Of a stretch of DNA of 64,000 bases, positions 2,557 to 30,735 are shown in pieces (within the stretch, counting starts at the first letter, position 1; every line of letters starts with the position of its first letter). A program made the translations under genes and the position numbers. The stretch comes from Pelolinea submarina (GTDB taxonomy: Bacteria > Chloroflexota > Anaerolineae > Anaerolineales > Anaerolineaceae), in NCBI RefSeq assembly GCF_003966975.1, contig NZ_AP018437.1, positions 372,001-436,000 on the forward strand. The letters run 5' to 3'. The notes under the pieces are model-generated. The model searched no databases, was not told where the DNA came from, and was given only the letters and a program-made list of their open reading frames with translations.

Positions 2557-4739
2557 CCTACTATTTCAAGGCGCGCAACCGAGGCTGCCAGGCGTTTCAG
2601 CCCCACAGACTCGAACATGACCGTGACAGTCTCGTCGTTGCCCAGAATACGCGTTTCCACCACCAGCCCGCTGCCCCAGGTGGAATGTGTTACCCGCATA
2701 CCGGCCTGGTAACGGGATTCCTTAGGTGTCTCTTTTTTGGGTGTGCTCCGTTCGTAAGAGGAAGGTTCCCAGCGCGGATGACTGAGCGGCGTAAGACGCT
2801 GCACGCCCAGACGCACGCCTTCGCGTTTGATTAGTTCTTCCGGGATGTCATCAATAAAACGTGATTCCATGGTGTATTCAAAGCGGCCGTAATTGCTGCG
2901 CTGACCGGCGCGCACCAGCGTGAGGTGGTTCTTGGCGCGCGTGATGCCCACGTAGAACAGGCGCCGTTCCTCGGCCATTTCCTCCGGGTCTTCCAGCGAG
3001 CGGCTGTGCGGCAGCAGGCCTTCATCCAGACCGACGATATAGACGTGTGAAAACTCCAGCCCTTTGGCTGCGTGCAGGGTTAACAGGGTGGGCGCGTCGT
3101 TCTCTTCCGGCACGGTATCCTGGTCGGAAACCAGAGCGATATTTTCTAAGAATTCCGTGATGCCGCGCTCTTCATATTCGTAAGCCAGGCGGCGCAGCTC
3201 CAGCACGTTTTCCCAGCGTCCGTCGCCCATCTCGGTGCCGTCATCGATGTACGCTTTGTAGCCAATGTCGGCCAGGATGCGGTCGAACAGGTCCGGCAGG
3301 GGATTGCTCTGGCCGAATTCGCGCCAGTTCATCAGCAGCGAACCGAAATGTGCCAGCATGCTTGCGCTGCGGCTGGAGAATGTATCCCAAAATGGGGATT
3401 TTTGTCCCAGCTCGCCCAGCGACAAGAGTACATCGCTGGAAGTCAGGTTGTTATTTTGAGCGATCTGGTCAAGGTCGAGCAAGGTCTTGCTGCCTACCCC
3501 GCGAGGCGGCACGTTGATGACGCGCGCCAGGCTGACCGAGTCATAGGTGTTGTGCACCAGACGCAGGAAGGAGATAATGTCTTTTACTTCACGGCGGCCG
3601 TAGAAACGTTGGGCGCCTACCAGCCTGTAAGGAATATTGGCGCGCAGGAAAGCTTCTTCCAGCAGACGGGATTGGGCGTTAGTGCGGTACATGATGGCAA
3701 ATTCCCCGCCTTCCTGCCCGGAAGCTATGCGATCGACGATATCGTCCACAACATAAGCTGCTTCAGCGTGGTCGTCTACCGCGTCGTACAGGCTGATCAG
3801 CGGACCCTCGCCGCGCTTGGAATACAGGTTCTTGGGCGTGCGGGATTTGTTTTGGTTGATGACCGCCTGGGCGGCATCCAGCACGTTCTGGGTGGAGCGA
3901 TAATTGCGCTCCAGCAGGATCTTTTCTGATTTGGGATAGTCGCTTTGGAAACGCAGCACGTTGCGGTAATCCGCCCCGCGCCAGCGGTAAATGGACTGGT
4001 CCTCATCGCCGACTACAAACAGGCAGTGATGCACCGAAGACAGGTGTTTGAGCAGCTCATACTGGGCCTGGTTGGTATCCTGGAATTCATCCACCAGCAC
4101 ATGTTCGAAGCGCTGGCCGTATTTTTCACGGATTTGCGGATTTTCTTCAAATAAGCGCACGCTCCACATCAACAGGTCGTCAAAATCGACCGCGTTGCTG
4201 CTGCGCAGGATCTTTTCGTATTGCTCATATACCCGTTTGGAAATCTCCTCACGGTAAGTGCGCGATTTTACCTGATCCGGGCCCTGCATGGCATTCTTGG
4301 CGTTGGAAATAACGTTATGGATGCTGGCCGGACGGTACAACTTATCGTCGATGTTCAAATCTTTAAGCACGCGTTTGATAATGGATTGCTGGTCGTCGGC
4401 GTCCATGATGACAAAGTTATTGTCGAATGGCAGCGCGTCGGCTTCGCTGCGCAGGATGCGCGCGCAAATGGCGTGGAAAGTACCCAGCCACAACGCGTTG
4501 ACGCCCTTGCCCAACATGCGTTCCAGGCGCGTGCGCATTTCGCGCGCGGCTTTGTTGGTGAAAGTGACTGCCAGAATGCTATGCGGGCTGACTTTGTTTT
4601 CGTTTACCAGGAAAGCGATGCGCTGCGTGAGCACGCGCGTCTTTCCGGAACCCGGCCCGGCCAGGACTAATAATTGTCTGGCGGAAGAGGTAACGGCTTC
4701 ATGTTGTTGGGGATTTAAGTTCTTAAGTGCGTCCATCAT
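2553..4739 (-). CDS. pcrA: ATP-dependent DNA helicase PcrA/UvrD
   Basis: This 728-residue superfamily 1A helicase unwinds DNA 3' to 5' in nucleotide excision repair, removal of RecA filaments and plasmid replication. Motifs appear in order: Walker A AGPGSGKT (near residue 27), motif II VDEFQDTN, motif III GDEDQSIYRWRGA, motif IV ERNYRST, motif V TLHAAKGLEF and motif VI RRLFYVGITRA. The C-terminal tail (YQAGMRVTHSTWGSG) is the Tudor-like RNA polymerase-binding module of PcrA, which favours PcrA over Rep. Two adjacent ATGs (4739 and 4736) are candidate starts. A TACAAT box at 4751-4756 (reverse strand) would make the transcript nearly leaderless. The stop TAA at 2553-2555 shares bases with the convergent TAG. 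Confidence 0.95.
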   Translation of the reverse strand: MMDALKNLNPQQHEAVTSSARQLLVLAGPGSGKTRVLTQRIAFLVNENKVSPHSILAVTFTNKAAREMRTRLERMLGKGVNALWLGTFHAICARILRSEADALPFDNNFVIMDADDQQSIIKRVLKDLNIDDKLYRPASIHNVISNAKNAMQGPDQVKSRTYREEISKRVYEQYEKILRSSNAVDFDDLLMWSVRLFEENPQIREKYGQRFEHVLVDEFQDTNQAQYELLKHLSSVHHCLFVVGDEDQSIYRWRGADYRNVLRFQSDYPKSEKILLERNYRSTQNVLDAAQAVINQNKSRTPKNLYSKRGEGPLISLYDAVDDHAEAAYVVDDIVDRIASGQEGGEFAIMYRTNAQSRLLEEAFLRANIPYRLVGAQRFYGRREVKDIISFLRLVHNTYDSVSLARVINVPPRGVGSKTLLDLDQIAQNNNLTSSDVLLSLGELGQKSPFWDTFSSRSASMLAHFGSLLMNWREFGQSNPLPDLFDRILADIGYKAYIDDGTEMGDGRWENVLELRRLAYEYEERGITEFLENIALVSDQDTVPEENDAPTLLTLHAAKGLEFSHVYIVGLDEGLLPHSRSLEDPEEMAEERRLFYVGITRAKNHLTLVRAGQRSNYGRFEYTMESRFIDDIPEELIKREGVRLGVQRLTPLSHPRWEPSSYERSTPKKETPKESRYQAGMRVTHSTWGSGLVVETRILGNDETVTVMFESVGLKRLAASVARLEIVG

Positions 4740-17507: not shown

Positions 17508-18158
17508 TTAGTAGCGGAATGGTTCGTTTTGTGATTTGGTTTGTGTGTTCAGCGGCTGAAATCCACTGGGCATGGGCTGCGGGTTGTCGTTGAAGCCGAA
17601 TGAACGTTTAGGCGTTCTGACGACTTTCTGAATTTTACTGACAGGCTGTTCCAACTTAGGGTTGAAGGCATAAATCAGAGAAGCGATGATCATAATGCGG
17701 ATGATCCACACACCCAGCGACACCAATACGGGAATGACGGTGACGAAGGTCAGCGGATCCAGCACCATAATGCTGTCAGCCGGTTGGTTGTAAAGCGTGA
17801 CACTGACACCCCACCAGGTCAACCCGGCGTTCATGGTGGCCGCTACGACCCAGGCGCCCAATAAGTACCAGCCGGCGCGATTGTTTTTATCGCTGGATCC
17901 CGATAGCAGGCTGGCGATGCCGGCGAAGTCCATGCCGCAGAAAGCCAGCGCCAGAATGGTGGACCAGCGCATTGCGCCCATACCGTTGCCGCCCAGCATT
18001 TCCCGCAGGGCGAAGTCGGTGGTGCTGAAATTAAATACTTCAAAAGCAAACAGGGCCGCGATCATGATCAGGGTATAAACGTTGATGGAGCGGCTGCGCA
18101 GGTCATCCAGGAATTTGGTGGACATGCGGTTGATTTTTTGGCTGGTGGTCAGGTTCAT
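17508..18158 (-). CDS. Four-helix membrane protein of unknown function
   Basis: The 216-residue protein has a basic N-terminus, then hydrophobic helices near residues 29-45, 64-85, 95-117 and 135-165, and a polar, Pro- and Gln-rich cytoplasmic tail of about 45 residues (PKRSFGFNDNPQPMPSG). No family was recognised. A GGAGG site lies seven bases before the ATG. The gene is monocistronic. Its consensus promoter is overlapped by a perfect palindrome, so it is probably switched by a repressor. The same operator half-site recurs at the phage-derived operon promoter near 27240. Confidence 0.65.
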   Translation of the reverse strand: MNLTTSQKINRMSTKFLDDLRSRSINVYTLIMIAALFAFEVFNFSTTDFALREMLGGNGMGAMRWSTILALAFCGMDFAGIASLLSGSSDKNNRAGWYLLGAWVVAATMNAGLTWWGVSVTLYNQPADSIMVLDPLTFVTVIPVLVSLGVWIIRIMIIASLIYAFNPKLEQPVSKIQKVVRTPKRSFGFNDNPQPMPSGFQPLNTQTKSQNEPFRY

Positions 18159-18181
18159 GGCATCCTCCGGTTTAGATAATA

Positions 18182-18220
18182 TGTTCTATTTCTGTTCTAT
18201 TATAGAACAGTCATTCTATT
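18182..18220. promoter_or_regulatory. Palindromic operator with extra half-sites
   Basis: CTGTTCTAT, a central T and ATAGAACAG (18192-18210) make a perfect 19-base palindrome. The half-site TGTTCTATT also occurs at 18182-18190, exactly 11 bases upstream of the copy at 18193-18201, and a degenerate ATTCTATT lies at 18213-18220. The layout (GTTC-N7-GAAC over the minus 10 box) is what a dimeric repressor such as a LexA- or Cro-like protein would need. Which regulator binds is unknown. Confidence 0.65.
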
Positions 18221-18228
18221 AAAGTCAA
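18199..18228 (-). promoter_or_regulatory. Sigma-70 promoter of the four-helix membrane protein
   Basis: On the reverse strand TTGACT (18223-18228) and TATAAT (18199-18204) are separated by 18 bases. The minus 10 box sits inside the palindrome at 18192-18210. Confidence 0.75.
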
Positions 18229-19271: not shown

Positions 19272-20825
19272 ATGACCGATACGATTATTGTCCTGGATTA
19301 TGGGTCGCAGTATGCCCAATTGATCGCACGCCGCGTGCGTGAATTGCAGGTGTATTGCGAGTTGTTTCATTGGAATACCCCGCCGGAAGAAATTCTGGCG
19401 TTGAACCCCAAGGGGTACATCCTTTCGGGCGGGCCGGCCTCGGTTTATGAGGAGGGTGCGCCCACACTGCCGGCTTACGTACTCGATTCCGGCCTGCCGG
19501 TGCTGGGCATCTGCTATGGTATGCAGTTGTTGACCCATGACCTGGGCGGCAAAGTGGCCCCCGGCGGTGAGCGCGAATACGGCCATGCCAAAGTGAATGT
19601 CAATGTGGACAACCCGCTCATGCCGCAGGGCGATTATGAAGTATGGATGTCGCACGGCGACCGCGTGGAAGGACTTCCGCCCGGCTTCGAGCTGCTGGGC
19701 AGCAGCGCCAACAGCCCCTGGGCTGTCATGGGAAACGCTGAACGGCGCATCTACGGCATTCAATTCCACCCCGAAGTGCACCACACCCCCCAGGGCATGA
19801 CCATCCTGGAGAATTTCGTGGATGCCATTTGCGGGGCTGAGCGGGATTGGACTCCCAAACACATCATCGAGAAATCCGTGGCGGACATCCGCGCCCAGGT
19901 GGGCGATGCGCGCGTGCTGGCGGCGGTCAGCGGTGGCGTGGATTCCAGCGTAGCGGCTGCCCTGGTTCATCGCGCCATTGGGGGGCAGTTGTGCGCTTTG
20001 TTCGTGGATAATGGGCTGCTGCGTCAGGGCGAATTGGAATCCGTCCAGGTTGCGCTGAATGAACACATGGACGGCAGCTTGAATGTGCTGGATGCCTCTC
20101 AGGATTTCCTGTCTGCGTTGAGCGGCGTAACCGAGCCGGAAGCCAAGCGGCGCGCCATCGGCGAGACTTTCATCCGCAAGTTTGAATCGTTCGCCCGCCA
20201 GCAGGAGAATATCGATTTCCTCATGCAGGGTACCATCTACCCGGACGTGATCGAATCGCGCGCGCCGGAACGCTCCGCCGCGCAGGTGATCAAGTCGCAC
20301 CACAATGTGGGTGGCCTGCCGAAAGACATGCATTTTGCGCTGGTGGAACCCCTGCGTTATTTATTCAAAGACGAAGTGCGCCGCATCGGCGCGGCGTTGG
20401 GCCTGCCGGATGAGCTCATCTGGCGCCAGCCTTTCCCCGGCCCCGGCCTGGCTGTGCGCTGCCTGGGCGAGGTAACGGCTGAACGCCTGGCCACCCTGCG
20501 CGCCGCGGACGCCATCTTCACCTCCGAGCTGCGCGCGGCGGAACTGCTGGAGCAGCCCGGCGGCAGCGATACCGGCATCGCGCAAGCTTTCGTCGCTTTG
20601 CTGCCGGTAAAGTCGGTGGGCGTGATGGGCGACCAGCGCACCTACCAGGAGACGGCCGTGCTGCGCGCCGTCAGCAGCCAGGATTTCATGACCGCCGATT
20701 GGGTGCGTCTGCCTTATGAGCTGCTGGCCAGGGTCTCCAGCCGCATCGTTAACGAGGTCAAAGGCGTCAACCGCGTGGTCTACGACCTGACCTCCAAACC
20801 ACCCGCCACCATTGAGTGGGAATAA
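19272..20825 (+). CDS. guaA: GMP synthase (glutamine-hydrolysing)
   Basis: The 517-residue protein converts XMP, ATP and glutamine to GMP. The class I glutaminase domain (residues 1-195) has the nucleophile motif [10 protein letters not shown] and the His/Glu pair in 'QFHPEVHHT'. The ATP-pyrophosphatase domain has the PP-loop [13 protein letters not shown] (near residue 217). The dimerisation domain has '[16 protein letters not shown]' and ends [13 protein letters not shown], as in canonical GuaA. No Shine-Dalgarno sequence is evident before the ATG. It meets the phage-derived operon tail to tail. Confidence 0.97.
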
Positions 20826-20852
20826 GGAAAACAAGTTATAAAAAATGTTCTT

Positions 20853-21722
20853 TTAGGCAGGATACCTTGAGATTCCATCTAGGAAGGTAATCCATTGACT
20901 ATGATAAATAACTAATCTCTCTATGTCATTTCCCAATATATTTTTTCCAAAATTATTGTCTGAAAGATTTTTATATAATTGGGATGCATCAGAGAACAGT
21001 TCCTCAAGTTTTATTTTTGGATATAGTTGGTTAGCTAAGATTTCGGCCACCATAATTCGGTGTGCTTCTTTGTTTAATTCAAGACGTATATTTGGATTTA
21101 ATCTAGTATCTCGATTTTTTTGACGAGAAAGTTCTGCAAACCCACCCCACACTTGCTGAATAACATTTCTCATGTGCATAGCAGATTGATCTACAGAAAT
21201 TATTTTATTTTTGCTTTTAATGAAGCTTGCATTTGCTTCAGTAAACATTTCTCCTAAATTAGTATTTATTCTGTTCAAATTTGCTGTTAATTGATCTCTT
21301 TTTTGAACACCATCTGTATATTCGGTTGTTGTCTTTAGTATGTTATCCACCCATTCAGGGTGTTGGTTATTTGGATTTATATATTGCATCGCAATATTTG
21401 TAGCATTAACAATATAAGGTCCTGTTGAACCTGCCGTACTTTCAATTGATTCAATGAATAAGGGTGAAATATCTGAAATAATGGGAAAAACCGAACCTAT
21501 TATTTCATCATTTTTATTTTCCCAGGTAAGGAGGCTTGGTGCTAATTCTTCAGCAATATCTTTTGGGAGTCCTTTAACAATTCTCAAATTTGTGATTTTT
21601 TCATCTTTGAATCTTTGAACATTAGGAATAATATTGTTCAGTTTTGATACTTTTTTTAGAATATCATCACTTTTATCAATGTCCTTCTGAAGTTTTCTTT
21701 CTAACTCATCAAGATCACTCAT
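20853..21722 (-). CDS. AT-rich helical protein of unknown function, cargo position at the end of the phage operon
   Basis: The 289-residue protein is rich in Asn, Ile and Lys and mostly helical. It begins MSDLDELERKLQKDIDKSDD with heptad-like spacing and ends GISRYPA. The ATG at 21722 has a perfect GGAGGGG site; the longer frame uses a TTG that lies upstream of that site. No family was recognised. Base and codon use are far more AT-rich than guaA and the phage genes beside it, so it was probably acquired separately. It lies 51 bases after the last phage-like gene on the same strand, the typical place for a moron (cargo) gene, many of which serve phage exclusion or lysogenic conversion. Confidence 0.6.
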   Translation of the reverse strand: MSDLDELERKLQKDIDKSDDILKKVSKLNNIIPNVQRFKDEKITNLRIVKGLPKDIAEELAPSLLTWENKNDEIIGSVFPIISDISPLFIESIESTAGSTGPYIVNATNIAMQYINPNNQHPEWVDNILKTTTEYTDGVQKRDQLTANLNRINTNLGEMFTEANASFIKSKNKIISVDQSAMHMRNVIQQVWGGFAELSRQKNRDTRLNPNIRLELNKEAHRIMVAEILANQLYPKIKLEELFSDASQLYKNLSDNNFGKNILGNDIERLVIYHSQWITFLDGISRYPA

Positions 21723-21773
21723 AATCCCCTCCAAAAAGTAAAGAAATACTACCGATAGAAATATTATAGCAAT

Positions 21774-22094
21774 CTAGTGGATTGTGGTGTTGATGCTGTC
21801 CATACTGGCCTGAATGGCATCCGCGTTGGTCGCATCCCCCTGCATGATCTTGTACCACAGGGCAAAGACCAGGTCCTGCAGGGAGATCCCGGAATCGAAA
21901 TAGGCTGCGATGCGTGCTTCTTCCGTCGATTGAGACGTATTGTGCGCTGCGATCACAGCCGCGGCAGTGATTTGCTCGGTCGTGGTGAGGTCGCGGGAAT
22001 AATCCACGCGCCCATCAGACGCAACACTGACCACCGGCAGCCCGGCAGCCAAAAGCTCCTGGTGCAATTTTGTGGGATTTACGGATGTTGTCAT
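21774..22094 (-). CDS. Small phage-associated protein
   Basis: The 106-residue protein starts MTTSVNPTKLHQELLAAG and contains 'GLPVVSVASDGRVDYSRDLTTTEQITAAAVIAAH', a pattern seen in small proteins beside tail-fibre genes, where a similar module recognises the C-terminal tail region or acts in assembly. It has an AGAGGA site before the ATG. It lies downstream of the tail-fibre-like gene, separated by a repeat-filled stretch of 355 bases. The precise role is unknown. Confidence 0.6.
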   Translation of the reverse strand: MTTSVNPTKLHQELLAAGLPVVSVASDGRVDYSRDLTTTEQITAAAVIAAHNTSQSTEEARIAAYFDSGISLQDLVFALWYKIMQGDATNADAIQASMDSINTTIH

Positions 22095-22110
22095 TTTTCC
22101 TCTTTTCTTT

Positions 22111-22287
22111 TAACCACAGATGGACACAGATAAAAGCTGAAAACCGATTTTTTTTGCTTGATGCACACAGATAGTGGTGGACATTGGACTACCTGTATTT
22201 CCAGCCTTTTTTCTTAATCACAGATGGACACGGATAAACACGGATAAACACAGAAAAGCCTTTTCTTTGGTTGATGAACACAGATAG
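22111..22287. repeat. ACAGATGGACACAGATAAA-type short tandem/intergenic repeat
   Basis: Copies of CACAGATGGACACAGATAAA and related CACGGATAAACACGGATAA units appear at 22114-22134 and 22218-22255, with GATGCACACAGAT at 22161-22173 and GATGAACACAGAT at 22273-22285. Similar units occur at 24183-24203 and 24290-24300, directly upstream of the lysozyme start. Repeats like this are scattered between genes in many bacteria. Together with the next entry they fill the 355-base gap 22095-22449, in which no gene is seen. Confidence 0.75.
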
Positions 22288-22303
22288 GGATTCCTGTTTC
22301 TAG

Positions 22304-22429
22304 TGTCATTCTGAACGAAGTGAAGAATCTCGGAGTGATTAATGCTCGCGCCAATTTATATTTTGGCCGAGATCCTCTTCCCCGAAGGGAATGCTGCGCG
22401 AACGCAGCCTTCGGCTGCTCAGGATGACA
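22304..22429. repeat. TGTCATTCTGA...TCAGGATGACA inverted-repeat element
   Basis: The stretch opens TGTCATTCTGAACGAAGTGA and closes CTGCTCAGGATGACA, giving imperfect inverted ends, with internal 'GAATCTCGG' and 'GAGATCCTCTTCCCCG' pairing partially. It is a dispersed palindromic element of the kind found between genes in many phyla. A related element lies at 24214-24458. Confidence 0.75.
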
Positions 22430-22449
22430 TTATCAGGCAATTTCTGTAA

Positions 22450-23748
22450 TCAACCCTCAATCGCCCCGATCGCGCCGGAATGGTCGACTTCCACGCTATT
22501 GACCGTATTGGACCCGTAGTAAGTAACGGCCGGCGAAGCGTACCCAATTTCCAGTAGCTGCAGAAAGTGAAAGCCAACACCCGGATAACCGGCATAAATA
22601 GCTTGCACACCGGCACGTTCGGCAACCGAAAACGCAGCCCAAAGGGAATCTTCAGAAGGCAAAATGACCGAATCCAGCCCAATACCGATAGAGCGGATAA
22701 TGGCTGAGGTTTCGTTGGTGCCGGAATGAAATTGAAGTTTTACTTCGACCTCATCCACACCAATCACAAATTCCACACGGTTGTCCTCGGAATTATTCCA
22801 TGCGCGCCAGGCACGCACGGAATACGTCCAGGATTGGGTGCTTTCGTGACGGTAGAGCGTGCGGGGCACGCGGTTGTAATAATTCCACACGAAGCGTTTC
22901 TCTTTGGTGTCGCAGATCGTGCCAGCCGCGGACGTGCGCACGGTGCCCAGGTAACGGCAATTCAAGGCGCCGCTCTTGCAGTAGATCCCGTCCTGGCGCA
23001 CGATGGCCGTGGCGCGCAGCGTGTCGTTGGACCAGGTCGAGCAGGCTAATGCCAGTGTGCCGGCATTATCGTACAGCCAGATATCCGCGTTCGTGTCGGC
23101 CGGCATGGACGAAAGATCCAGCGATAGCTCGCTGAAAGTGTACAAGCGCCAGCCACAGCCTGGCACGTACAAGGCGATCCGGTTGCCGGTGTGGGGTGTG
23201 AAGTACACGAACGAGGAAGCGGACACGTCGGTCGAAGGGACGCTCACGCCGGTGGAGACAGTCAAGCGCCCCTCGCAGATTTGCGGTTCCACATAACCGA
23301 GCAAGCTCTTGATGTGGACTGCTAATTCTGTTCGGATGCTGTCCTTCTCAATTTTGGCGCCGTCCCAATAAAAGCGGCCAACGCGGCGCTGGTTCTCCCC
23401 TTCCGTAGAAGACATTGACACACTGAGTGTAAAGGTGGTGGAATCATCCGCGCGGTTGGCGAAAATATAGTAGGTATTCTCCGTTCCGGAGGGCTTATGG
23501 TCTGTGGCCAGGTCAACGTTGGCCACTGCCTGAACCATATAGCCGGCAATCATGAGCGATACCGGTTCGGTGGCTGAGGCGACGATGCGCACCTGGTCGG
23601 TGTTGAGGCGTTCGATCTGCAGCCGGGTTTCGTAGCGTTCGAGCAGCGCGGCCAGGTTGACCGCATCGTCGCCGGATTGGCCGAGGAAAAGGGCGTCAGA
23701 ACGCAGGGAATTGTAATGACTGGCGAGGGTGGCATCGCCGGCGGACAC
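22450..23748 (-). CDS. Phage tail-fibre/receptor-binding-like protein, probably lacking its original N-terminus
   Basis: The 432-residue frame begins with a GTG giving SAGDATLASHYNSLRSDAL, a sequence usually found some 10-15 residues inside tail proteins after a 'W.dG..vsAgdas' opening. The middle is beta-rich with Trp and Tyr (CGWRLYTFSELSLDLSS), and the C-terminus is 'FHFLQLLEIGYAS...GAIG', typical of tail appendages that bind a host surface. There is no ribosome binding site, and a stop codon stands immediately upstream in this frame. The sequence therefore appears joined by deletion to the truncated lysozyme gene. Confidence 0.65.
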   Translation of the reverse strand: MSAGDATLASHYNSLRSDALFLGQSGDDAVNLAALLERYETRLQIERLNTDQVRIVASATEPVSLMIAGYMVQAVANVDLATDHKPSGTENTYYIFANRADDSTTFTLSVSMSSTEGENQRRVGRFYWDGAKIEKDSIRTELAVHIKSLLGYVEPQICEGRLTVSTGVSVPSTDVSASSFVYFTPHTGNRIALYVPGCGWRLYTFSELSLDLSSMPADTNADIWLYDNAGTLALACSTWSNDTLRATAIVRQDGIYCKSGALNCRYLGTVRTSAAGTICDTKEKRFVWNYYNRVPRTLYRHESTQSWTYSVRAWRAWNNSEDNRVEFVIGVDEVEVKLQFHSGTNETSAIIRSIGIGLDSVILPSEDSLWAAFSVAERAGVQAIYAGYPGVGFHFLQLLEIGYASPAVTYYGSNTVNSVEVDHSGAIGAIEG

Positions 23749-24169
23749 TGATCATGTAGGACTGCCAGAACCCGCCGGAGGAGTAGATGATCGGCTTGAC
23801 TTTGAGCTCATTCTCGATCACGTCGCAGAACGCTTTCACGTCCGCGCACAAGGCTGCCCCGCTCTTGCCGGCGACTTCGAGATCGATCACCGGCCGCATG
23901 GTGAATGGCAGGTCCCGCACCACACCGAGGAATCCGGCGGCTTGCACTTCCGGATCCACGTGGGTGCGGTAGAAGTGATACGGGGCGCTGTAGATGCCGT
24001 TCTCAGCACAGCCCCGGGCGTTGGCTTCGAGATTGTCATCCACATAGATTTCCGTTTTACCCAGCGGGTATTCGGTCGCTTTATAGAAACAAAAGACCAC
24101 GCCGGCGGCTTTTACTTTCGGCCAATCGATATCCGACTGCCAATGACTTACATCGATTCCTGGTTTCAT
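23696..24169 (-). pseudogene. GH25 (Chalaropsis-type) lysozyme, C-terminally truncated
   Basis: Residues 1-139 match glycoside hydrolase family 25: MKPGIDVSHWQSDIDW (first catalytic Asp), 'GVVFCFYKATEYPLG', 'YSAPYHFYRTHVDPEVQA' and the catalytic DLE in 'MRPVIDLEVAG'. The domain breaks off after IIYSSGGFWQSYM, whereas GH25 domains normally continue about 50 residues more with further strands. The remaining 17 residues (ISVRRRCHPRQS) are the tail-fibre sequence read in the wrong frame. The start has a good AAGGAAAAAA site. It was probably the phage endolysin, cleaving peptidoglycan glycan chains, and is likely inactive now. Confidence 0.75.
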
Positions 24170-24182
24170 TTTTTTCCTTTCT

Positions 24183-24531
24183 TAACCACAGATGCACACA
24201 GATAATTTCCTAATGTCATTCCGAGCAAAGCGAGGAATCTCGGCCAAATTTGAGATTACGCTTTCTGACGGTAGATTTTCCTTATTTGATGCACACAGAT
24301 TTGCGCTCCCTAGGCAATGCTCCCTGAGCCTGTCGAAGGGAGCAGGAGAGTCATTGCGCAACATTCCCTCGGGGAAGGAATCTCGGCCCGAATTGAAAAG
24401 ACGCGTACTTGCCGTGCCAGCCGAGATCCTTCGGTCGCTCTGCTCCTTCAGGATGACAATAAAGGGAGAGTTGTCATTGCGAGCTTTGCGCTCCCTGAGC
24501 TCGTCGAAGGGGCGCAAGGCGAAGCAATCTC
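24183..24531. repeat. Cluster of dispersed palindromic repeats between lysozyme and large terminase
   Basis: The 520-base gap 24170-24689 holds no gene. It starts with CACAGATGCACACAGATAA units. A large inverted element follows from TGTCATTCCGAGCAAAGCGA (24214) to CCTTCAGGATGACA (ending 24458), with an internal CCCTGAGCCTGTCGAAGGG. A partial copy follows, with TTGTCATTGCGAGC at 24471 and GCGAAGCAATCT ending at 24531. The DnaA-box array (24590-24689) fills the rest. Confidence 0.75.
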
Positions 24532-24589
24532 AGTTGCGTACTGGCTATTTCTGCTGATCGTGTAGAGTGCCTTATAGAATGGTTTGTGT

Positions 24590-24689
24590 TTATCCACGCT
24601 TTCTCCACGCCTTTTCCACAGGCTTATCGACAGCTTATACACAGGCTTTTCCACAGAGTTATCCACATTTCCATATAGAGTTATCAACA
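24590..24689 (+). other. Helically phased array of DnaA-box-like nonamers (origin-like or titration element)
   Basis: Eight nonamers related to the DnaA box TTATNCACA lie on the same strand: TTATCCACG (24590), TTCTCCACG (24601), TTTTCCACA (24612), TTATCGACA (24624), TTATACACA (24635), TTTTCCACA (24647), TTATCCACA (24659) and TTATCAACA (24681). The slot at 24670 is degenerate. Start-to-start steps are 11, 11, 12, 11, 12, 12 and then 22 (two steps), so all face one side of the helix. Copies 24635 and 24659 are exact matches. No dnaA, dnaN or obvious AT-rich unwinding element is adjacent. Confidence 0.6.
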
Positions 24690-26261
24690 TCAGAAACCCT
24701 TATCCAAGTCGTCCAAAGGGTCGCGCGCCTGGATGATGTAGGTCGGCCGGCTGACGGCCCATTTCTTCTTGTCCAGCTCGGCGCACAGGGCGGCGGAAAT
24801 GAGCAGGTCATCGTGCACCAGGTCACCGGTGGCGGGATCGCGGCGGCCGTCCGGGACACCCCAGCGGACGCGCTTCTGTGGGCCGGGCAGGATTTCGAAC
24901 TCGCAGAATTGAATCTGGTTCCAAAAGATATTCGCTTCCTGCTCCTGCAGGAAATCATTTTCCACAGCGAGGTCCACAGGGCCACTCACGCTGTAGTCTT
25001 TGTACCTGCCGGAGTCGATGATGCCGAGGAAGTCCCACAGGAGATCCGATTTTGTACGGACGTTGAACTCGAAGGGGATTACCTTATCGCCCAGCGAAGC
25101 GCTGAGAAAAGAAGTTAGGCCAGCGCCCACGCCGGTGCAGTCCACCACCAGGTAGCGCACGTTGAACAGTTCGGCCATAGCTTTGATAGCGCCGTATAGC
25201 GTGGAATGTTTTACTCCTACCCACTCGCGCCGCTGGACCACCTTGTAGGTGGGCTTGTTGATGAGCGGGTCGTCGACGCTGGCCAGGTCGACTTCGAAGA
25301 CAGTCAGGGCGGTACTGTCGCGCTTGGGGTTGGCCAGGCTCTCTACCTCGCCGCTTTCCGGGTCGGCGATCACGGCCTCATCTTCGCCGGCGACGTCCAG
25401 CGTCATGGCGTACAGCTTCCCGGGCAGCGGGGATACCTGGGGGGCATGCTCGCCTTTCATCATGGCCACGCGGGCCGGCGGGAACAGCCCGCCTTCGGCG
25501 TCAATCTCTTCCGAAAAATATTGTGTTTTGATCATGGGATGGTTACGCCCAAGGCGGGCAATCTGGCCGGCGACAAAGTCGCCGTATGCCGGTACTTCGC
25601 GGCTGACGTCGTCAGCGGTGAGCACGAACACGCGCCGCTGGCCGTCCTGTTTTTCGGCCTTGCGCGCTGCGCGCAGCTCACGGGCCAGCAGGGTGCGGCT
25701 GGTCCAGGCGGTGCCCCAGAACACGCGTGTGGCGTTGGTGCTGGCGGCCATGGGGGCGATGTCCTTGTCGAACTTGGCCGGCAGCACGTCCTGGGCTTCG
25801 TCCACTTCCAGCAGCACGTTGGCCGTGGCGCCCACGATGTTGGACCGTGGTTGTCCGGAGAAAAAGTAAATGCGCGCCTTTCCGCAGCGGTAGATATATC
25901 CGGATTCCTTGGTCCATAAGTGCTTGGCGATCAGGTTGGAATCCAGGACACGTTCCAGCCGGCGCATGGCGTTGAGGGTCTGGGGTTTCCAGGTGGGCGA
26001 GACTTTGACCAGTTCAGCGTTCATGAGGTAATAGCAGCAAAGTAAATAGGTTTCGAGCTGGGCCTGCAGCTCGTTCTTTCCGGATTGGCGCGGGAACATG
26101 ACCACGAACGAGCGCCCGGCGCCCTCCTGTACGGAGCGGAAGACCGCTTCGGCCACACCGCGCTGGTAGTCTCTTAACTTGATGGTTGAACACGTATCGA
26201 TGAATGTATCCACGTCGGCCATGGCGCGGCGCAGCTGCAGCAGTACCTGATTGTTTGTCAT
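24690..26261 (-). CDS. Phage terminase large subunit
   Basis: The 523-residue protein packages DNA into proheads. The N-terminal ATPase has a Walker A-like PRQSGKNE (near residue 58), Walker B 'VLLEVDEAQD' (near 150) and coupling motif 'VFWGTAWTSRTL'. The C-terminal RNase H-like nuclease shows the Asp-containing strands 'YAMTLDVAGEDEAV' (near 278), 'LVVDCTGVGAGL' (near 360) and the final 'VHDDLLISAALC' (near 490). ATPase and nuclease both look intact. It starts 12 bases after the holin-like gene stop. No portal or capsid gene follows, which is unusual and points to a remnant. Confidence 0.88.
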   Translation of the reverse strand: MTNNQVLLQLRRAMADVDTFIDTCSTIKLRDYQRGVAEAVFRSVQEGAGRSFVVMFPRQSGKNELQAQLETYLLCCYYLMNAELVKVSPTWKPQTLNAMRRLERVLDSNLIAKHLWTKESGYIYRCGKARIYFFSGQPRSNIVGATANVLLEVDEAQDVLPAKFDKDIAPMAASTNATRVFWGTAWTSRTLLARELRAARKAEKQDGQRRVFVLTADDVSREVPAYGDFVAGQIARLGRNHPMIKTQYFSEEIDAEGGLFPPARVAMMKGEHAPQVSPLPGKLYAMTLDVAGEDEAVIADPESGEVESLANPKRDSTALTVFEVDLASVDDPLINKPTYKVVQRREWVGVKHSTLYGAIKAMAELFNVRYLVVDCTGVGAGLTSFLSASLGDKVIPFEFNVRTKSDLLWDFLGIIDSGRYKDYSVSGPVDLAVENDFLQEQEANIFWNQIQFCEFEILPGPQKRVRWGVPDGRRDPATGDLVHDDLLISAALCAELDKKKWAVSRPTYIIQARDPLDDLDKGF

Positions 26262-26273
26262 TGGCGAGGGTGC

Positions 26274-26582
26274 TCACTTCTTCCCCCCGAGCCAGGCAGC
26301 GATCGCGGAAGCGATCAGGGTCAGGGCAGCCTGTCCGGCTTGGATGATTGTGGAGGTGGTTTTTCCGGAGATGACCGCGTCGTCGATGGTGCGGATGCGG
26401 TTCTCATGGTCGGCGACGTCGTTCTGGATTTCCTGCAGCTGGTTGCGGATGAAGTTCATCTTCTCAGCCTCCAGCTTGTCGTGGTGTTCGAGTTCTTTCT
26501 CGATCCGCCGAAAGCGCGACTCGATGCTGTCTTTCAGGCGGTTGAATTGCTCGCTCAGGAGCTGCGCTTGCAAATCGTCCAT
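26274..26582 (-). CDS. Coiled-coil protein with C-terminal membrane helix, XhlA-like holin accessory
   Basis: The 102-residue protein starts MDDLQAQLLSEQFNRLKDSI and is a continuous charged helix with heptad spacing to about residue 75, then a hydrophobic segment ALTLIASAIAAWLGG and a final KK. This plan matches XhlA/haemolysin-type phage lysis accessory proteins, which are anchored by one C-terminal helix and assist the holin. The position between small and large terminase is unusual for a lysis gene. No DNA-binding features are seen. Confidence 0.65.
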   Translation of the reverse strand: MDDLQAQLLSEQFNRLKDSIESRFRRIEKELEHHDKLEAEKMNFIRNQLQEIQNDVADHENRIRTIDDAVISGKTTSTIIQAGQAALTLIASAIAAWLGGKK

Positions 26583-26620
26583 AGAATCCCATTTCTACGC
26601 AGATGGTGGAGAGGGCGCGT

Positions 26621-27019
26621 TTAATTTCCAGCGGGGTCGCTGAGTCCAAGGTCATGGGCTACCTCTCCGATGGCTTGAGATAAGACGCTGATTACGTCGC
26701 CGTTGTCGCCGGCGATAAGCTGTTGGGTGCGCAGCAGGCCGGCCAGGCGGGTGGAAGCGGCGCCCAGTGTGTTGAGGGCCTGCGACCAGGTGTCGAGGCT
26801 TTGGGCGTCTGTGTCGGCATATTCGAAAACGCGGCGGATGATCACGCGCAGGAGAGCGATCTCATCGGTGAGGCCGTCGGACAAAGTGGTGCTGAGGTCT
26901 GCCAGTTCGAGGTTATTGAAGCGATGGGAATAAAACCCGTGCTTCAGGGCGTTGGTGTTGCCTGGCTGGCCGCCACGTTTGCGTTTGGCGGTGACGTTTG
27001 TTGTGACGTTTGCTGTCAT
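26621..27019 (-). CDS. Phage small terminase-like protein
   Basis: A protein of about 132 residues starts MTANVTTNVTAKRKRGGQPG and has the basic 'GGQPGNTNALKHGFYS' motif that opens many terminase small subunits and related phage proteins. A helical region (LSDGLTDEIALLRVIIRRVF) follows and the protein ends SDPAGN. The reading frame is open upstream to a GTG at 27124, but that stretch is Pro-rich and lacks similarity, so the ATG at 27019 is chosen; the start is not certain. It is the first gene after the operator-covered promoter, and the large terminase follows 12 bases after the next gene. Confidence 0.65.
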   Translation of the reverse strand: MTANVTTNVTAKRKRGGQPGNTNALKHGFYSHRFNNLELADLSTTLSDGLTDEIALLRVIIRRVFEYADTDAQSLDTWSQALNTLGAASTRLAGLLRTQQLIAGDNGDVISVLSQAIGEVAHDLGLSDPAGN

Positions 27020-27230
27020 GTTGGCTTCGTTGTGTGCTTCCTTGTTTATGACTTCCTTCGGTGCGGGCCGGCCCGGGCGGGTGGAGGGGTGCCTGGCGGG
27101 CGCCAGCGGCGCGGGAGGGGGCACGCCGCTGTGCCGCTGCGTTGTCTGGCTACTTGGTTTCCAGCCGCTCCCCGGTCCGGCTTGTGACCCTGTTCGGGCG
27201 CCGGCCCGCGGGGGAGGTGTGAAATAGAAT

Positions 27231-27253
27231 TAATGTTCTATTTACGAACATTA
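27231..27253. promoter_or_regulatory. Palindromic operator at the phage operon start site
   Basis: TAATGTTC and GAACATTA are perfect inverted eight-base arms separated by seven bases, over the predicted transcription start. The sequence shares the nine bases TGTTCTATT and the GTTC-N7-GAAC layout with the operator at 18192-18210. A further inverted half-site (AATAGAA) lies at 27223-27229. Confidence 0.65.
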
Positions 27254-27281
27254 AAATAGCAAAAATTACCGGTTTTGACAA
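27253..27281 (-). promoter_or_regulatory. Predicted promoter of the phage-derived operon
   Basis: On the reverse strand TTGTCA (27276-27281) and TATTTT (27253-27258) are separated by exactly 17 bases. The predicted start falls within the palindrome 27231-27253. A leader of over 200 bases would precede the small terminase. Confidence 0.55.
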
Positions 27282-27291
27282 CCTGTCAAAA
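27273..27291. promoter_or_regulatory. Second palindrome over the minus 35 region of the phage operon
   Basis: TTTTGACA, ACC, TGTCAAAA is a perfect inverted repeat overlapping the predicted minus 35 box on the reverse strand. It contains TTGACA on both strands, so it may be part of the promoter itself or a second operator. Confidence 0.55.
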
Positions 27292-27389
27292 GGTGAACGT
27301 GAGAAAAAGGGGGATGCTGAAGTGAGAGCTTCTGATAGTTTTAACCTCATAGAATGGTGTTCAATATCAATAATTTAAAGGAGTAAGCA

Positions 27390-27788
27390 ATGGAAGTTCC
27401 ACGCCATTGGAGATTACAAAAACAACGCTACAGCCTGACGGGTGAGGTCTGCCCGCATTGTGACGCGAAAATTTTTCCGGCCCGCGATGTCTGCCCCGAG
27501 TGCGGCGGCGAGGCCAAAGAACCCTTCCGCTTTAGCGGTAAGGGCGAAGTCTATTCCTACACTGTCATGAACAACGCTCCGGCCGGCTTCGAGCGCAGCT
27601 TGCCCTACACCGTCGCGCTGGTCAAACTGGCCGAAGGCCCCACCGTCACCGCCCAACTGACCGACCTGGGCGACACCCCCGTCAACATCGGCATGCCGGT
27701 TGAGATGGTCACCCGCCGCATCAAAGAAGACGGCGACGAGCGCGGCATGTTAATCTACGGTTACAAATTCCGCCCGGTATTGGGATAA
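27390..27788 (+). CDS. Zn-ribbon OB-fold protein (DUF35 / thiolase-accessory type)
   Basis: The 132-residue protein starts MEVPRHWRLQKQRYSL, has a rubredoxin-like zinc ribbon (CPHCDAKIFPARDVCPECGG, residues 21-40) and an OB-fold with 'GEVYSYTVMNNAPAGF'. This is the DUF35 architecture of acyl-CoA-associated proteins that partner thiolase-like HMG-CoA synthase or acetoacetyl-CoA enzymes. No thiolase or HMG-CoA synthase lies nearby, so its partner must be elsewhere. An AAGGAG site lies seven bases before the ATG. It ends in a strong terminator. Confidence 0.9.
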   Translation: MEVPRHWRLQKQRYSLTGEVCPHCDAKIFPARDVCPECGGEAKEPFRFSGKGEVYSYTVMNNAPAGFERSLPYTVALVKLAEGPTVTAQLTDLGDTPVNIGMPVEMVTRRIKEDGDERGMLIYGYKFRPVLG

Positions 27789-27802
27789 AGATTTGGAGTA
27801 TC

Positions 27803-27832
27803 TAAAAAGCCTTCCGAATGGAAGGCTTTTTT
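27803..27832 (+). terminator. Rho-independent terminator after the DUF35-type gene
   Basis: AAAAAGCCTTCC, GAAT and GGAAGGCTTTTTT form a strong hairpin with a T-run, 15 bases after the stop. Confidence 0.92.
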
Positions 27833-27851
27833 ATTTAACAAGCACGCTATT

Positions 27852-27980
27852 CCTCCCCCATAATGGAGTACCCATTATGGGGGAGGTTAGGAGGGGGCCG
27901 GGACAACATAGAAAAAATGGATGAGGCTAGGAGGTGGTAAGGACGGTGAAGAGAAAATGGGGGAGGTTACGAAGGAGCTC
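27852..27980. repeat. CCTCCCC...GGGGGAGG palindromic repeat, short form plus fragments
   Basis: CCTCCCCCATAATGG and CCATTATGGGGGAGG are a perfect 15-base inverted pair (27852-27885), followed by GTTAGGAGGGGGC and by two degenerate copies of ATGGGGGAGGTTAGGAGG up to 27980. It belongs to the same dispersed family as 29686, 30617, 38528, 38702 and 44190. Confidence 0.8.
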
Positions 27981-28042
27981 GGCTCAGATGCACGCATATG
28001 TATAATGAACAAAGATCATCTGTAAAGATAGAGGCAGAGAAA

Positions 28043-28600
28043 ATGGAAACCTATATAGCTTTAATTCGGGGCATCAACGTCGGCGGCAAGAACGCCCTAT
28101 CGATGGCCGACCTGAGAAAATTCCTGGAAGAACAGGGCTTTGTTGATGTCTCCACCTACATTGCCAGCGGGAATGTGATCTTGAGATCGAATAAACCTGC
28201 GTATGAGATCCGTGATTGCCTGGAAAAAGGCCTCCCCCAGAATTTTAAATTGGACGATGAATTCGTCAAAGTCCTGGTGCTGACTTCTGTCCAATTCCGG
28301 GCCGTGGTTGCCAACAAGCCTGAGGGATTCGGTGAACAGCCTGATCAATACCACAGCGATGCCATCTTCCTCATGGATATCGATGCCGCCGAAACGATGA
28401 GCGTCTTTAACCCACGCGAAGGCGTGGATCGCATCTGGCCGGGTGAGGGCGTGATCTACTCGCAGCGACTCAGCGCGCTGCGCACCAAGAGCCGCCTGAA
28501 CAAGATCATGAGCTCACCGGCTTATAAATCCATGACCATTCGTAATTGGAATACCGTCATGAAGTTGATGGAGATCCTGGGGAAAATGGAAGCGGAATAA
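28043..28600 (+). CDS. DUF1697 family protein
   Basis: The 185-residue protein starts METYIALIRGINVGGKN, the conserved signature of DUF1697. It continues with 'DVSTYIASGNVILRS' and ends with 'MTIRNWNTVMKLMEI', both typical of the family, so it is full length. The longer frame from 27998 adds residues not found in the family. These cytoplasmic proteins have a ferredoxin-like fold and no established biochemical role. It is flanked by palindromic repeats upstream and stands alone. Confidence 0.9.
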   Translation: METYIALIRGINVGGKNALSMADLRKFLEEQGFVDVSTYIASGNVILRSNKPAYEIRDCLEKGLPQNFKLDDEFVKVLVLTSVQFRAVVANKPEGFGEQPDQYHSDAIFLMDIDAAETMSVFNPREGVDRIWPGEGVIYSQRLSALRTKSRLNKIMSSPAYKSMTIRNWNTVMKLMEILGKMEAE

Positions 28601-28792
28601 AGGTTAGTTACTTGCTTGAATATTGCGCGAATCAACTTAAATATGGTTAATAATAAATTAAAAAAGAGAGGTCAGGAGGAGATATCAGAGCAAAAAAAGG
28701 GGCGGCTTGCCTGTCGAGATGGCCACGTGCAGCATCCTGCCCTTTCTGGCGCCACCAGTCTCTTGCACAATCGAATGAATCGGAAAGATTAA

Positions 28793-29593
28793 ATGAAATC
28801 AATTGGAACATTCCCGTTTGGGCAGTCAGTACATGAAGTCTCACAAAAAGACCGCACTTCGAAGGACGTGTTTGTTTTAGGCGTTTATGCAAGTGCAGTT
28901 CACGCACGTTGGATAAACAAAAGCCAGAAAACTGTTGTCAATGCTCTTGCTGTTGCGAGTGAACCATATATCTTTTGGCGTGGCGAAAATGCGGAATCCA
29001 TAATTCAGCAAATCGTCATTCCGGAAGAAATAGGGAGACTCATTCCAGCAAAACAAGATTTCAACGGCCCATCGGGAATTGCCCTTGATAAGTTGATCTT
29101 GCATCCTTTGGAATTGGAACGTCAAAATGTCTGGTTGTGTGATTTAGTGCCTCATAGTTGTGTAAATCCTTCTCAGCGTAAAGCTATTGAGCGAGCATAT
29201 TTACCGATTGCATCAAAATATGGATTAGCCAAACCCACTGTTCCACCTGTTCCAACGGTACTTGCTGATGATAATCGTCGAAAGGCGATTTTGGCTGAGA
29301 TAATTGAGTCAGAAGCAAAAATTCTAATATTGCTTGGCGATAAACCTATACAATGGTTTCTTTTTCCTTTTGATAATCGTTGGAGAAAACTCTCGGATTT
29401 TGGGCATGCTGGTCAGTCATACGGTCAACTACACAAGGCGCGAATAGGTGATAAGGAAATAGATGTTTTACCGCTCGCTCACCCCAGGCAAATTGCTCGG
29501 CTTGGTCAATCATCCGCTGTTTGGTACGATAATCATGAAAAATGGCTCAAGCAATCAGCAAGCAAGGTTGCACAGTATTTAAAATCTGGCTGA
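28793..29593 (+). CDS. Uracil-DNA glycosylase superfamily-like protein
   Basis: The 266-residue protein contains 'FVLGVYASAVHARW' near residue 27, resembling motif A (GxxPS/A) of the UDG superfamily, 'LCDLVPHSCVN' near residue 115, 'ILILLGDKPIQWFLFP' and a late 'LPLAHPRQIARLGQ' resembling the motif B H-P-S/R loop. The fold looks like the three-layer UDG sandwich, but family 4/5 iron-sulphur cysteines are not evident. It may remove damaged bases or act in defence against modified phage DNA; neither is shown. Confidence is moderate because motif A lacks the usual catalytic Asp/Glu. Confidence 0.55.
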   Translation: MKSIGTFPFGQSVHEVSQKDRTSKDVFVLGVYASAVHARWINKSQKTVVNALAVASEPYIFWRGENAESIIQQIVIPEEIGRLIPAKQDFNGPSGIALDKLILHPLELERQNVWLCDLVPHSCVNPSQRKAIERAYLPIASKYGLAKPTVPPVPTVLADDNRRKAILAEIIESEAKILILLGDKPIQWFLFPFDNRWRKLSDFGHAGQSYGQLHKARIGDKEIDVLPLAHPRQIARLGQSSAVWYDNHEKWLKQSASKVAQYLKSG

Positions 29594-29641
29594 CGCTGTG
29601 TCAACCAGGCGCGCTGCGTTAGGGTTGAATAGATGATCAAA

Positions 29642-29670
29642 CAAAGTCCCCATTCGGGGGTTTTGTTATT
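29642..29670 (+). terminator. Terminator-like hairpin after the UDG-like gene
   Basis: AAAGTCCCC, ATTC and GGGGGTTTT form a short GC stem with flanking A and T runs ending TTTTGTTATT, about 50 bases after the stop codon. Confidence 0.65.
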
Positions 29671-29685
29671 TAACAATCCTGCATT

Positions 29686-29789
29686 CCTCCCCTATTTTTC
29701 GAAGCTCTTTGCAAGAGCAAAGAGCGGAGATGCACATTCCTGAACAGCCTCGAGCTGTCCCCGGAATGGGTACTCCATTGTGGGGGAAG
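29686..29789. repeat. Palindromic repeat, long form (copy A)
   Basis: Outer arms CCTCCCC and GGGGGAAG enclose two inner hairpins: GCTCTTTG...CAAAGAGC and CATTCC..CAGCCTCGAGCTG..GGAATG. The same organisation is seen at 30617-30735 and 38528-38640 with substitutions in the stems, so a three-way junction is possible. Confidence 0.8.
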
Positions 29790-29810
29790 CCAGCGTTTTT
29801 TTCGAAAGCA

Positions 29811-30542
29811 TTATTCGGTTTTTGAGAATAGATGTTTGTGATAAAGGCCCGGATTCATTAAAAAGTCTTTGGTGATTTGATAATGCTCGGTCTCTTCATA
29901 AATAACCTTTGTAATCCGTTCTTGGTCAAAGCTGTAAATAATCGCTTCGGGATAACTGAGAATGATCGGCGAATGCGTGGCAATGATGAACTGCGCCTTT
30001 CCTGTCTTCTCAAGTTCATGCATCAGCACCAGAAAAGACAATTGCCTTTTCGGAGATAAGGCGGCTTCCGGTTCGTCCAATATATAAATACCTTTTTTGA
30101 ATTTATTTTCAAATAACGCCAGAAATGCTTCCCCATGGGACTGGCCGTGCAATGACTTGCCGCCATACGCGTCATACACGCCCGGTTCATCCGATTCCAG
30201 ATTGTCGATATATGTGGCAAAGTTGAAGAAGCTTTCCGCCCTCAGAAAGAAGCCATCCGTTACCTTGGGAAGCCAGGAAAACCGCAATATCGATCCAAGA
30301 TTGGATTCGGTCTTATGATATTGGTAATAATGGTTCCTGTTCCCGCCCGCTACATTGAACCCGCAGTTTTCAGCAATAGCCTCGAGCAGCGTCGATTTCC
30401 CGGATCCGTTTTCTCCCACAAAAAAAGTCACATTGCTGCTGAATTCCATGTTGATTCCTTCGGAGAAAGCCGGAATATTGAATGGATATTCTTGTGCGTT
30501 AGCGGTATTTTCGACAGTTCGAATTGAATTAAGGAAGGGCAT
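29811..30542 (-). CDS. AAA/ABC-type ATPase of the RecF/SbcC-like AAA_15 class
   Basis: The 243-residue protein has Walker A GENGSGKST (near residue 44), an ABC signature-like LHGQSHGEA (near 131), Walker B 'GIYILDEPEAALSP' and the switch His in 'FIIATHSPIILSYP'. It lacks a long coiled coil, so it is a compact head domain. Stand-alone ATPases of this type are common in Bacteria and some belong to defence operons such as retron or OLD-like systems, but here there is no recognisable effector next to it. It is bracketed on both sides by long-form palindromic repeats. Confidence 0.85.
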   Translation of the reverse strand: MPFLNSIRTVENTANAQEYPFNIPAFSEGINMEFSSNVTFFVGENGSGKSTLLEAIAENCGFNVAGGNRNHYYQYHKTESNLGSILRFSWLPKVTDGFFLRAESFFNFATYIDNLESDEPGVYDAYGGKSLHGQSHGEAFLALFENKFKKGIYILDEPEAALSPKRQLSFLVLMHELEKTGKAQFIIATHSPIILSYPEAIIYSFDQERITKVIYEETEHYQITKDFLMNPGLYHKHLFSKTE

Positions 30543-30616: not shown

Positions 30617-30735
30617 TCCCCCCTATTTTTCGAGGCTCTTTGTAAGAGCAAAGAGCGGAGATGCCCATTCCGGAACAGCCTCGAGCTGGTACAGGAATAG
30701 GTACTCCATTATGGAGGAGGCTAGGAGGGGGCGGG
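30617..30735. repeat. Palindromic repeat, long form (copy B)
   Basis: Near-identical to copy A over the inner hairpins (GCTCTTTG...CAAAGAGCGGAG and CATTCCGGAACAGCCTCGAG), closing with GGAGGAGGCTAGGAGGGGGC. Lies between the divergent AAA ATPase and the HEPN-like gene in a 307-base gap that holds no gene. Confidence 0.8.

Follow-up and report, generated by a model that had tools for sequence, protein, structure and literature searches.

A leftward promoter in front of a phage-derived operon in the chromosome of Pelolinea submarina carries two different perfect palindromes, and this raises the question of which regulator acts there and what kind of element it controls. The analysis covers the window, i.e. 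the whole stretch of DNA analysed (64,000 nucleotides, to which coordinates given without a further label refer), and related genomes of the same order. We consider it highly likely, on the basis of sequence comparison, that this site (site 2) serves as a LexA (SOS) operator and that the promoter belongs to a domesticated cluster of packaging and capsid genes of phage origin, which is probably a gene transfer agent (GTA).

Inverted repeats at the operon promoter

The palindromes named in a preliminary description of this DNA, TAATGTTC-N7-GAACATTA at 27231-27253 (palindrome 1) and TTTTGACA-ACC-TGTCAAAA at 27273-27291 (palindrome 2), are both perfect, and the 17-base-spaced reverse-strand promoter proposed with them was recovered by a promoter scan as TTGTCA-N17-TATTTT with a TG preceding the -10. 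A third perfect repeat, absent from that description, is centred on a LexA-type box. The features of site 2 are the following:

27222-27243, no strand assigned: third perfect repeat AAATAGAA-N6-TTCTATTT with 8-bp arms, centred on the LexA-type box
27225-27240, minus strand: predicted LexA-type operator TAGAATTAATGTTCTA (minus-strand reading TAGAACATTAATTCTA), 1 mismatch to TAGAAC-N4-GTTCTA
27230-27254, no strand assigned: palindrome 1 with extended 9-bp arms, TTAATGTTC-N7-GAACATTAA, from the inverted-repeat search
27253-27261, minus strand: extended -10 TGCTATTTT (-10 hexamer 27253-27258), from the promoter scan
27273-27291, no strand assigned: palindrome 2, its palindromic completion private to this genome among 68 promoters
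27279-27291, minus strand: conserved non-palindromic element TTTTGACAGGTTG, approximately 25 nt upstream of the -10 (our count)

When arms of ≥8 bp and spacers of up to 20 are required, 3 inverted-repeat centres are found in the 111 bp at 27200-27310 and 35 in the entire 64-kb window. As a chance control the 111-bp segment was subjected to 2000 dinucleotide shuffles, which gave a mean of 0.038 centres, two centres in 2 shuffles and three in none; the number of repeats in this segment is above chance. An Rfam search of 20000-30000 gave no match.

As conserved operator units the palindromes fail, being rare or private to this genome. Palindrome 1 consists of one half of the LexA-type box and an adjacent GTTC half-site, and the N7 palindrome was ruled out as an operator unit with GTTC-N7-GAAC present in 3 of 68 aligned promoters. 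The pattern TTTTGACA-N3-TGTCAAAA was likewise ruled out as a conserved palindrome, as no other of the 68 promoters has it at ≤2 mismatches.

The LexA-type box and the LexA of the genome

The box at 27225-27240, one arm of which has GAAT in place of GAAC, follows the extended -10 at a distance of approximately 12 nt; in many relatives a -10-like sequence is seen, judged by eye, at a comparable distance before the box. Site 2 and a second site in the window (site 1, see below) have TAGAA[C/T]-N4-[G/A]TTCTA in common, an extended-arm version of the GAAC-N4-GTTC dyad. The available text of PMC3323433 describes GAAC-N4-GTTC as the LexA motif, first in Bacillus subtilis and then extended to Gram-positive bacteria.

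A cognate repressor gene had been suggested as something to look for elsewhere in the genome, and the genome does encode LexA (G000:C1:95051), which has its two Pfam domains (PF01726 and PF00717) and scores 151.9 bits against TIGR00498 (cut-off 110.95). In the genome's own recA promoter, TAGAACATTTATGCTA runs into TATAAT, and the 16-mer TAGAACATTTATGCTATAATA there resembles the operon box, with 2 mismatches to TAGAAC-N4-GTTCTA. The genome's lexA promoter contains TTGACACAGAACTAATGTTCGTGTATAGT, where the box CAGAACTAATGTTCGT has the core of the operon box and different outer bases (3 mismatches). Among the family's lexA promoters the box is present in all 69 examined, in 57 as perfect GAAC-N4-GTTC and in 12 in a relaxed form.

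That the box belongs to some other repressor with a similar dyad, e.g. one of phage type encoded elsewhere, is improbable. The outer bases TA...TA, which are unlike those of lexA's own box, and a second S24-peptidase protein encoded at G000:C1:2189616 would fit such a repressor, and it is opposed by the boxes of GAAC-N4-GTTC type in promoter position of the genome's recA and of every family lexA gene examined, as well as by the identity of this dyad with the B. subtilis motif published in PMC3323433 (available text). The idea that a host or distant prophage regulator controls the operon is supported in its host part, with LexA as the most likely regulator. The likeness to the Gram-positive operator consists of the core dyad and its occurrence in lexA and recA promoters (PMC3323433, available text); the present site differs in having the extended TAGAAC-N4-GTTCTA and in following the -10 of a promoter that serves a cluster of phage origin. 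The literature searched yielded no account of a LexA regulon in Chloroflexota.

Counting boxes across the whole genome was uninformative, with no excess over expectation: ≤1 mismatch to TAGAAC-N4-GTTCTA was found at 11 places against approximately 8 expected from a uniform-base estimate, and up to 2 mismatches at 64 places against 148 for a reversed control pattern. It is thus the comparison between genomes, and not the palindromes alone, that carries the case.

We propose that LexA bound to TAGAATTAATGTTCTA, over or just after the predicted start site, would block leftward transcription into terS-terL. After DNA damage, activated RecA would induce self-cleavage of LexA, and expression of the cluster would follow.

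Conservation of the box upstream of homologous terminase genes

The large terminase (TerL) of the operon was searched for in 301 genomes of the order, 77 of which had a match. The box test used the 450 nt preceding TerS in 45 family promoters, drawn from 46 loci of the genomes in this search. Within 450 nt the best match had 0, 1 and 2 mismatches in 13, 18 and 9 promoters, respectively (40 of 45), a level of ≤2 mismatches that approximately 1.2% of dinucleotide shuffles reach; four control palindromes were found in 1, 0, 1 and 0 of the same 45 promoters. The box of the other five promoters lies outside the 450-nt stretch, so that 45 of the 46 family loci have it at ≤2 mismatches when the region 200-1450 nt upstream of TerL is scanned for the best match, and the 46th locus is truncated at a contig end. 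The match counted for one locus (L109 of genome G174) is doubtful and may be due to chance, being located far upstream in a repeat-like stretch. In another family of the same order the box is present with 1 mismatch at three loci (L136, L139 and L140), and loci outside the family without it include L100, L108, L141 and L144.

This conservation supports the view that a predicted regulatory site lies on the minus-strand promoter of the phage-derived operon. Nothing indicates that the operon has lost a repressor gene of its own, as had been proposed; throughout the family, and at some loci outside it, the box is found ahead of the cluster. If the A+T-rich palindromes were clustered by chance, or the promoter had no operator function, the poor conservation of the two palindromes as originally drawn would be explained; this reading is very improbable given that no shuffle produced three repeats and that a conserved box occupies the corresponding place in the relatives (40 of 45 within 450 nt).

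A second conserved promoter element

The element TTTTGACAGGTTG is the part of palindrome 2 that is conserved among relatives. Of 68 box-aligned promoters, 38 have it, with at least 9 of 13 matches, at a distance of 47-52 nt upstream of the box; its core TTTTGAC (at least 6 of 7) is present in 40 of the 68 compared with 3 of 68 at control offsets. We suggest that it is probably the site of a further regulator, which would act at 27279-27291, upstream of the -10. Of the earlier idea of tight, possibly dual control, the dual part is plausible, because two separate conserved elements are present on the promoter; the palindromes as the units of that control are not retained.

Strong inverted repeats 51-160 nt upstream of the box, considered as a possible additional operator common to the promoters, occur in 13 of 45 promoters, compared with 1.6% of shuffles, and are not uniform. 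Those at L099, L103 and L127 (score 12) lie 70-96 nt upstream of the box, and at L127 the repeat arm GGCAGGTT recurs within the second conserved element of the same promoter.

A membrane-protein gene with the same type of box

Site 2 had been described as the second site of a shared operator, and site 1 (18173-18218) is indeed located upstream of a minus-strand ORF:

17508-18158, minus strand: gene behind site 1, encoding a 216-aa membrane protein
18173-18188, no strand assigned: second, weaker box of site 1, 2 mismatches
18203-18218, minus strand: LexA-type box of site 1, TAGAATGACTGTTCTA, between TTGACT (18223-18228) and TATAAT (18199-18204)

The 216-aa protein had no match in Pfam or NCBIfam and has homologs in 88 of the 147 family genomes. 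At all of the best-scoring 30 homolog loci a box (≤2 mismatches) is present within 103 nt of the inferred start, and this uncharacterised gene probably belongs to the SOS core of the family, as far as promoter comparison can tell.

The gene cluster in relatives

Intact relatives have a compact cluster that encodes TerS, a small coiled protein, TerL, a GH25 endolysin, a portal protein and a protease-capsid fusion, followed by further genes for a holin-like protein, C7 and then either the pair C10-C8 or the pair C9-C5. At one representative locus (L090) the portal matches PHROG 10963 (2.9e-34) and the protease-capsid fusion PF25209 (1.5e-26). TerL, portal and capsid gene (MCP) are found together at 37 of the 46 family loci, and one of the two late pairs is present at 35 loci with these three genes; several of the remaining 9 loci are short or truncated by contig ends. 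In these intact relatives the particle genes would be expressed along with terS-terL.

Compared with a phage collection, TerL has no near counterpart, the closest being 30% identical. The predicted structure of C10 is a good model (mean pLDDT 90.8) whose best match is the tail tip of mycobacteriophage Bxb1 (E 2.6e-7, with a TM-score of just 0.31), a hint that C10 might be a tail component. The model of C5 was poor (mean pLDDT 57.7) and was set aside. No tape measure or tail-tube protein was recognised among the nine L090 proteins scanned.

Frequency, inheritance, selection and integrases

Of the 147 family genomes, 103 have TerL and 101 have the capsid gene; for the 64 good genomes (completeness ≥90%, contamination ≤5%) the numbers are 57 and 50, respectively, with mostly one TerL match each. 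TerL and LexA distances were compared for 44 genomes and are correlated (Mantel r 0.73, reached in 0 of 2000 permutations), and 7 of 8 multi-member genera are monophyletic in the TerL tree and 8 of 8 in the LexA tree. The exception involves G174, which has two copies, L109, used for the tree, and L135; since L109 falls outside its genus, the tree indicates that some horizontal movement of TerL occurs.

For eight close pairs the dN/dS ratios of the cluster genes are mostly 0.05-0.3, the highest being 0.43 (TerS, one pair); these ratios are rough, with many dS values above 1 and five comparisons saturated. Judging from these values the cluster is under purifying selection.

The scan for mobility genes covered tyrosine integrases. 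One of 20 genomes has a tyrosine integrase within 20 kb of TerL (G213, at 17 kb; some contigs end before that distance). For 15 of the 20 the contig with TerL has no listed tyrosine integrase, and more than 90 kb separate TerL from the nearest one in G000, G027, G234 and G263. Within each of the genera g1 and g3 the cluster has a shared host neighbourhood, and four g3 loci have host genes downstream in common. Apart from the tyrosine integrase of G213, neither an integrase beside the cluster nor variable insertion sites, as expected for an active prophage, were seen, with insertion sites compared within g1 and g3.

These data bear on the possibility that we are dealing with an ordinary family of LexA-induced prophages, mobile or recently decayed, where the box would be the phage's induction switch in the manner of GIL01 and the cluster would be a widespread prophage of Anaerolineales with no host function. 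Such prophages would explain the 39 IMG/VR contigs that have the TerL, the two TerL copies in a few genomes, the integrase 17 kb from TerL in G213 and an integrase-like ORF on contig L180 (our own reading of its translation), and direct repression by the host LexA is known for GIL01 from the available text on that phage. We nevertheless regard this as rather unlikely in view of the presence of TerL in 57 of the 64 good genomes, mostly as a single match, the congruence of the TerL tree with the host, the host flanks in common within g1 and g3, the near absence of integrases within 20 kb (1 of 20 genomes) and one genome, G040, in which TerL and the capsid gene lie 1.75 Mb apart on one contig. 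The reading as a domesticated cluster, inherited with the chromosome in the relatives and most likely acting as a gene transfer agent, would account for these observations.

The copy in the window

The window carries an incomplete version of the cluster, all on the minus strand:

26621-27124, minus strand: TerS-like protein with the RGGQPGNTNALKHG motif, weak PHROG matches, dN/dS approximately 0.31 versus L148; the ATG at 27019 is the more likely start
26274-26582, minus strand: C6, short coiled protein with a hydrophobic C-terminal end, the cluster's second gene at some loci
24690-26261, minus strand: TerL, large terminase, intact ORF, dN/dS approximately 0.11 versus L148
23696-24169, minus strand: GH25 endolysin, truncated, reading into the deletion junction near 23749
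22450-23748, minus strand: C5, late cluster gene, first codons seemingly lost at the junction
21774-22094, minus strand: C61, last small cluster gene in the window's genus

Compared with the metagenomic contig L148, whose TerL is 94% identical, approximately 8 kb is absent between the GH25 gene and C5. A search for the capsid gene across the window's genome found none, a meaningful absence because the same query matched in 101 of the 147 family genomes. Portal and capsid genes are thus deleted while terS and terL are still open, and for this reason the operator in the window's genome probably drives an incomplete remnant. In this genome the deletion of portal, capsid and neighbouring genes would have left a terminase remnant under SOS control.

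Two members of the genus are intact (G357 and G358), with the whole cluster and a box at 1 mismatch, and two, the window's genome and G249, have different deletions. In both of the latter the cluster is flanked by an OB-fold gene and, at the opposite end, by guaA, a lipoprotein-like gene and the gene for the 216-aa membrane protein. In G358 guaA adjoins the end of the cluster, and G357 has the lipoprotein-like and membrane-protein genes and no guaA in the stretch examined.

Between TerL and the endolysin remnant the window has a repeat-like insert (24205-24590), whose reading frames are of the "RFARND" type known from short interspersed repeats.

Separated terminase and capsid genes in one genus

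In genus g4 the terminase and capsid genes are not neighbours (L342-L350; L106, L107 and L147). The distance of 1.75 Mb comes from G040; in G259 and G327 no TerL is present on the capsid contig in 28 and 132 kb upstream, respectively. In one of the remaining g4 genomes, G180 (Flexilinea flocculi), the two genes lie on contigs whose ends might even be adjacent. A separate box (≤2 mismatches) is found at the start of the g4 capsid gene at 7 of 9 loci, compared with 32 of 2700 shuffles; G259 has it with 1 mismatch and G327 with 2, and the copy at L349 has 3. A box heading the separated capsid half is what would be expected of LexA control kept by selection, and G040 is without it, as its capsid half has no convincing box (best 3 mismatches).

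A wider reading is that the Anaerolineaceae have a GTA of independent origin whose structural genes belong to the SOS regulon under direct LexA control, with a second LexA site at the separated capsid genes, and that it is being lost in the window's genus. We put this forward tentatively, at somewhat less than even chances, because no clear box heads the capsid genes of G040, the one genome in which a single contig holds both halves. If it is true, DNA damage would trigger packaging and export of host DNA, and the window's genus would keep a capsid-less, SOS-inducible terminase.

Three g4 genomes (G253, G323 and G327) have 6-10 TerL matches each, mostly distant (approximately 35-43% identity, fragments included), which may represent either numerous decayed copies or another relative of greater mobility.

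Comparison with known systems

According to the available text of PMC11841831, the experimentally known GTAs are those of Alphaproteobacteria, Brachyspira, Desulfovibrio and Methanococcus. Known GTAs (Rhodobacter, Caulobacter, Bartonella, Brachyspira, Desulfovibrio, Methanococcus) likewise have packaging and structural genes, inherited congruently with the host and sometimes located at several loci, as here (PMC11841831, same text). The present cluster, a candidate GTA, differs in its Chloroflexota host and its distant terminase (best 30%). The same source states that homology, synteny and gene content are not yet definitive for new GTAs, and that induction protocols are missing for most.

GTAs are described in general terms as SOS-inducible in the accessible texts, where the Rhodobacter and Caulobacter GTAs appear with GafA, CtrA and the LexA-like RogA; in the present case the LexA-type box is located on the structural cluster itself. 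Our literature search, mostly without subscription journals, retrieved no Chloroflexota GTA and no LexA box directly on a GTA structural promoter, and the available parts of PMC8597652, PMC9377139 and PMC12946183 hold nothing about a Chloroflexota GTA.

Among phages, GIL01 is repressed directly by the host LexA, and the promoter of the CTX prophage by the host LexA together with RstR, as far as the accessible texts describe them. Both are mobile phages, whereas the present cluster is chromosomal and present in most good family genomes, with an integrase within 20 kb in 1 of 20. PBSX is a defective prophage, a particle-making chromosomal element that is linked to DNA damage and has its own repressor; in contrast, the cluster studied here has a LexA-type box on its structural promoter.

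If the preferred reading is correct, most good genomes of the family, and cultured strains such as Leptolinea tardivitalis YMTK-2 and Longilinea arvoryzae KOME-1, offer a candidate GTA for which DNA damage is the predicted inducer. The box would provide a regulatory signature that helps to tell domesticated from mobile clusters, and horizontal gene transfer would be linked to DNA damage in one more phylum.

Additional observations

The 22-kb IMG/VR contig L180, with a 50%-identical TerL and the integrase-like ORF at 3635-4483, had no box that we could find and is possibly a true phage relative. Elsewhere in the genome, at L021 (G000:C1:3347149), a LexA-type box directly precedes a gene that may also belong to the SOS response. 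Its product is a radical-SAM protein whose similarity to TIGR03916 (putative DNA repair) does not reach the cut-off of that family. In the window, near-identical 22-bp palindromes, GCTCTTTG-N6-CAAAGAGC, at 29704-29725 and 30635-30656 flank a minus-strand ATPase-like ORF (29811-30542).
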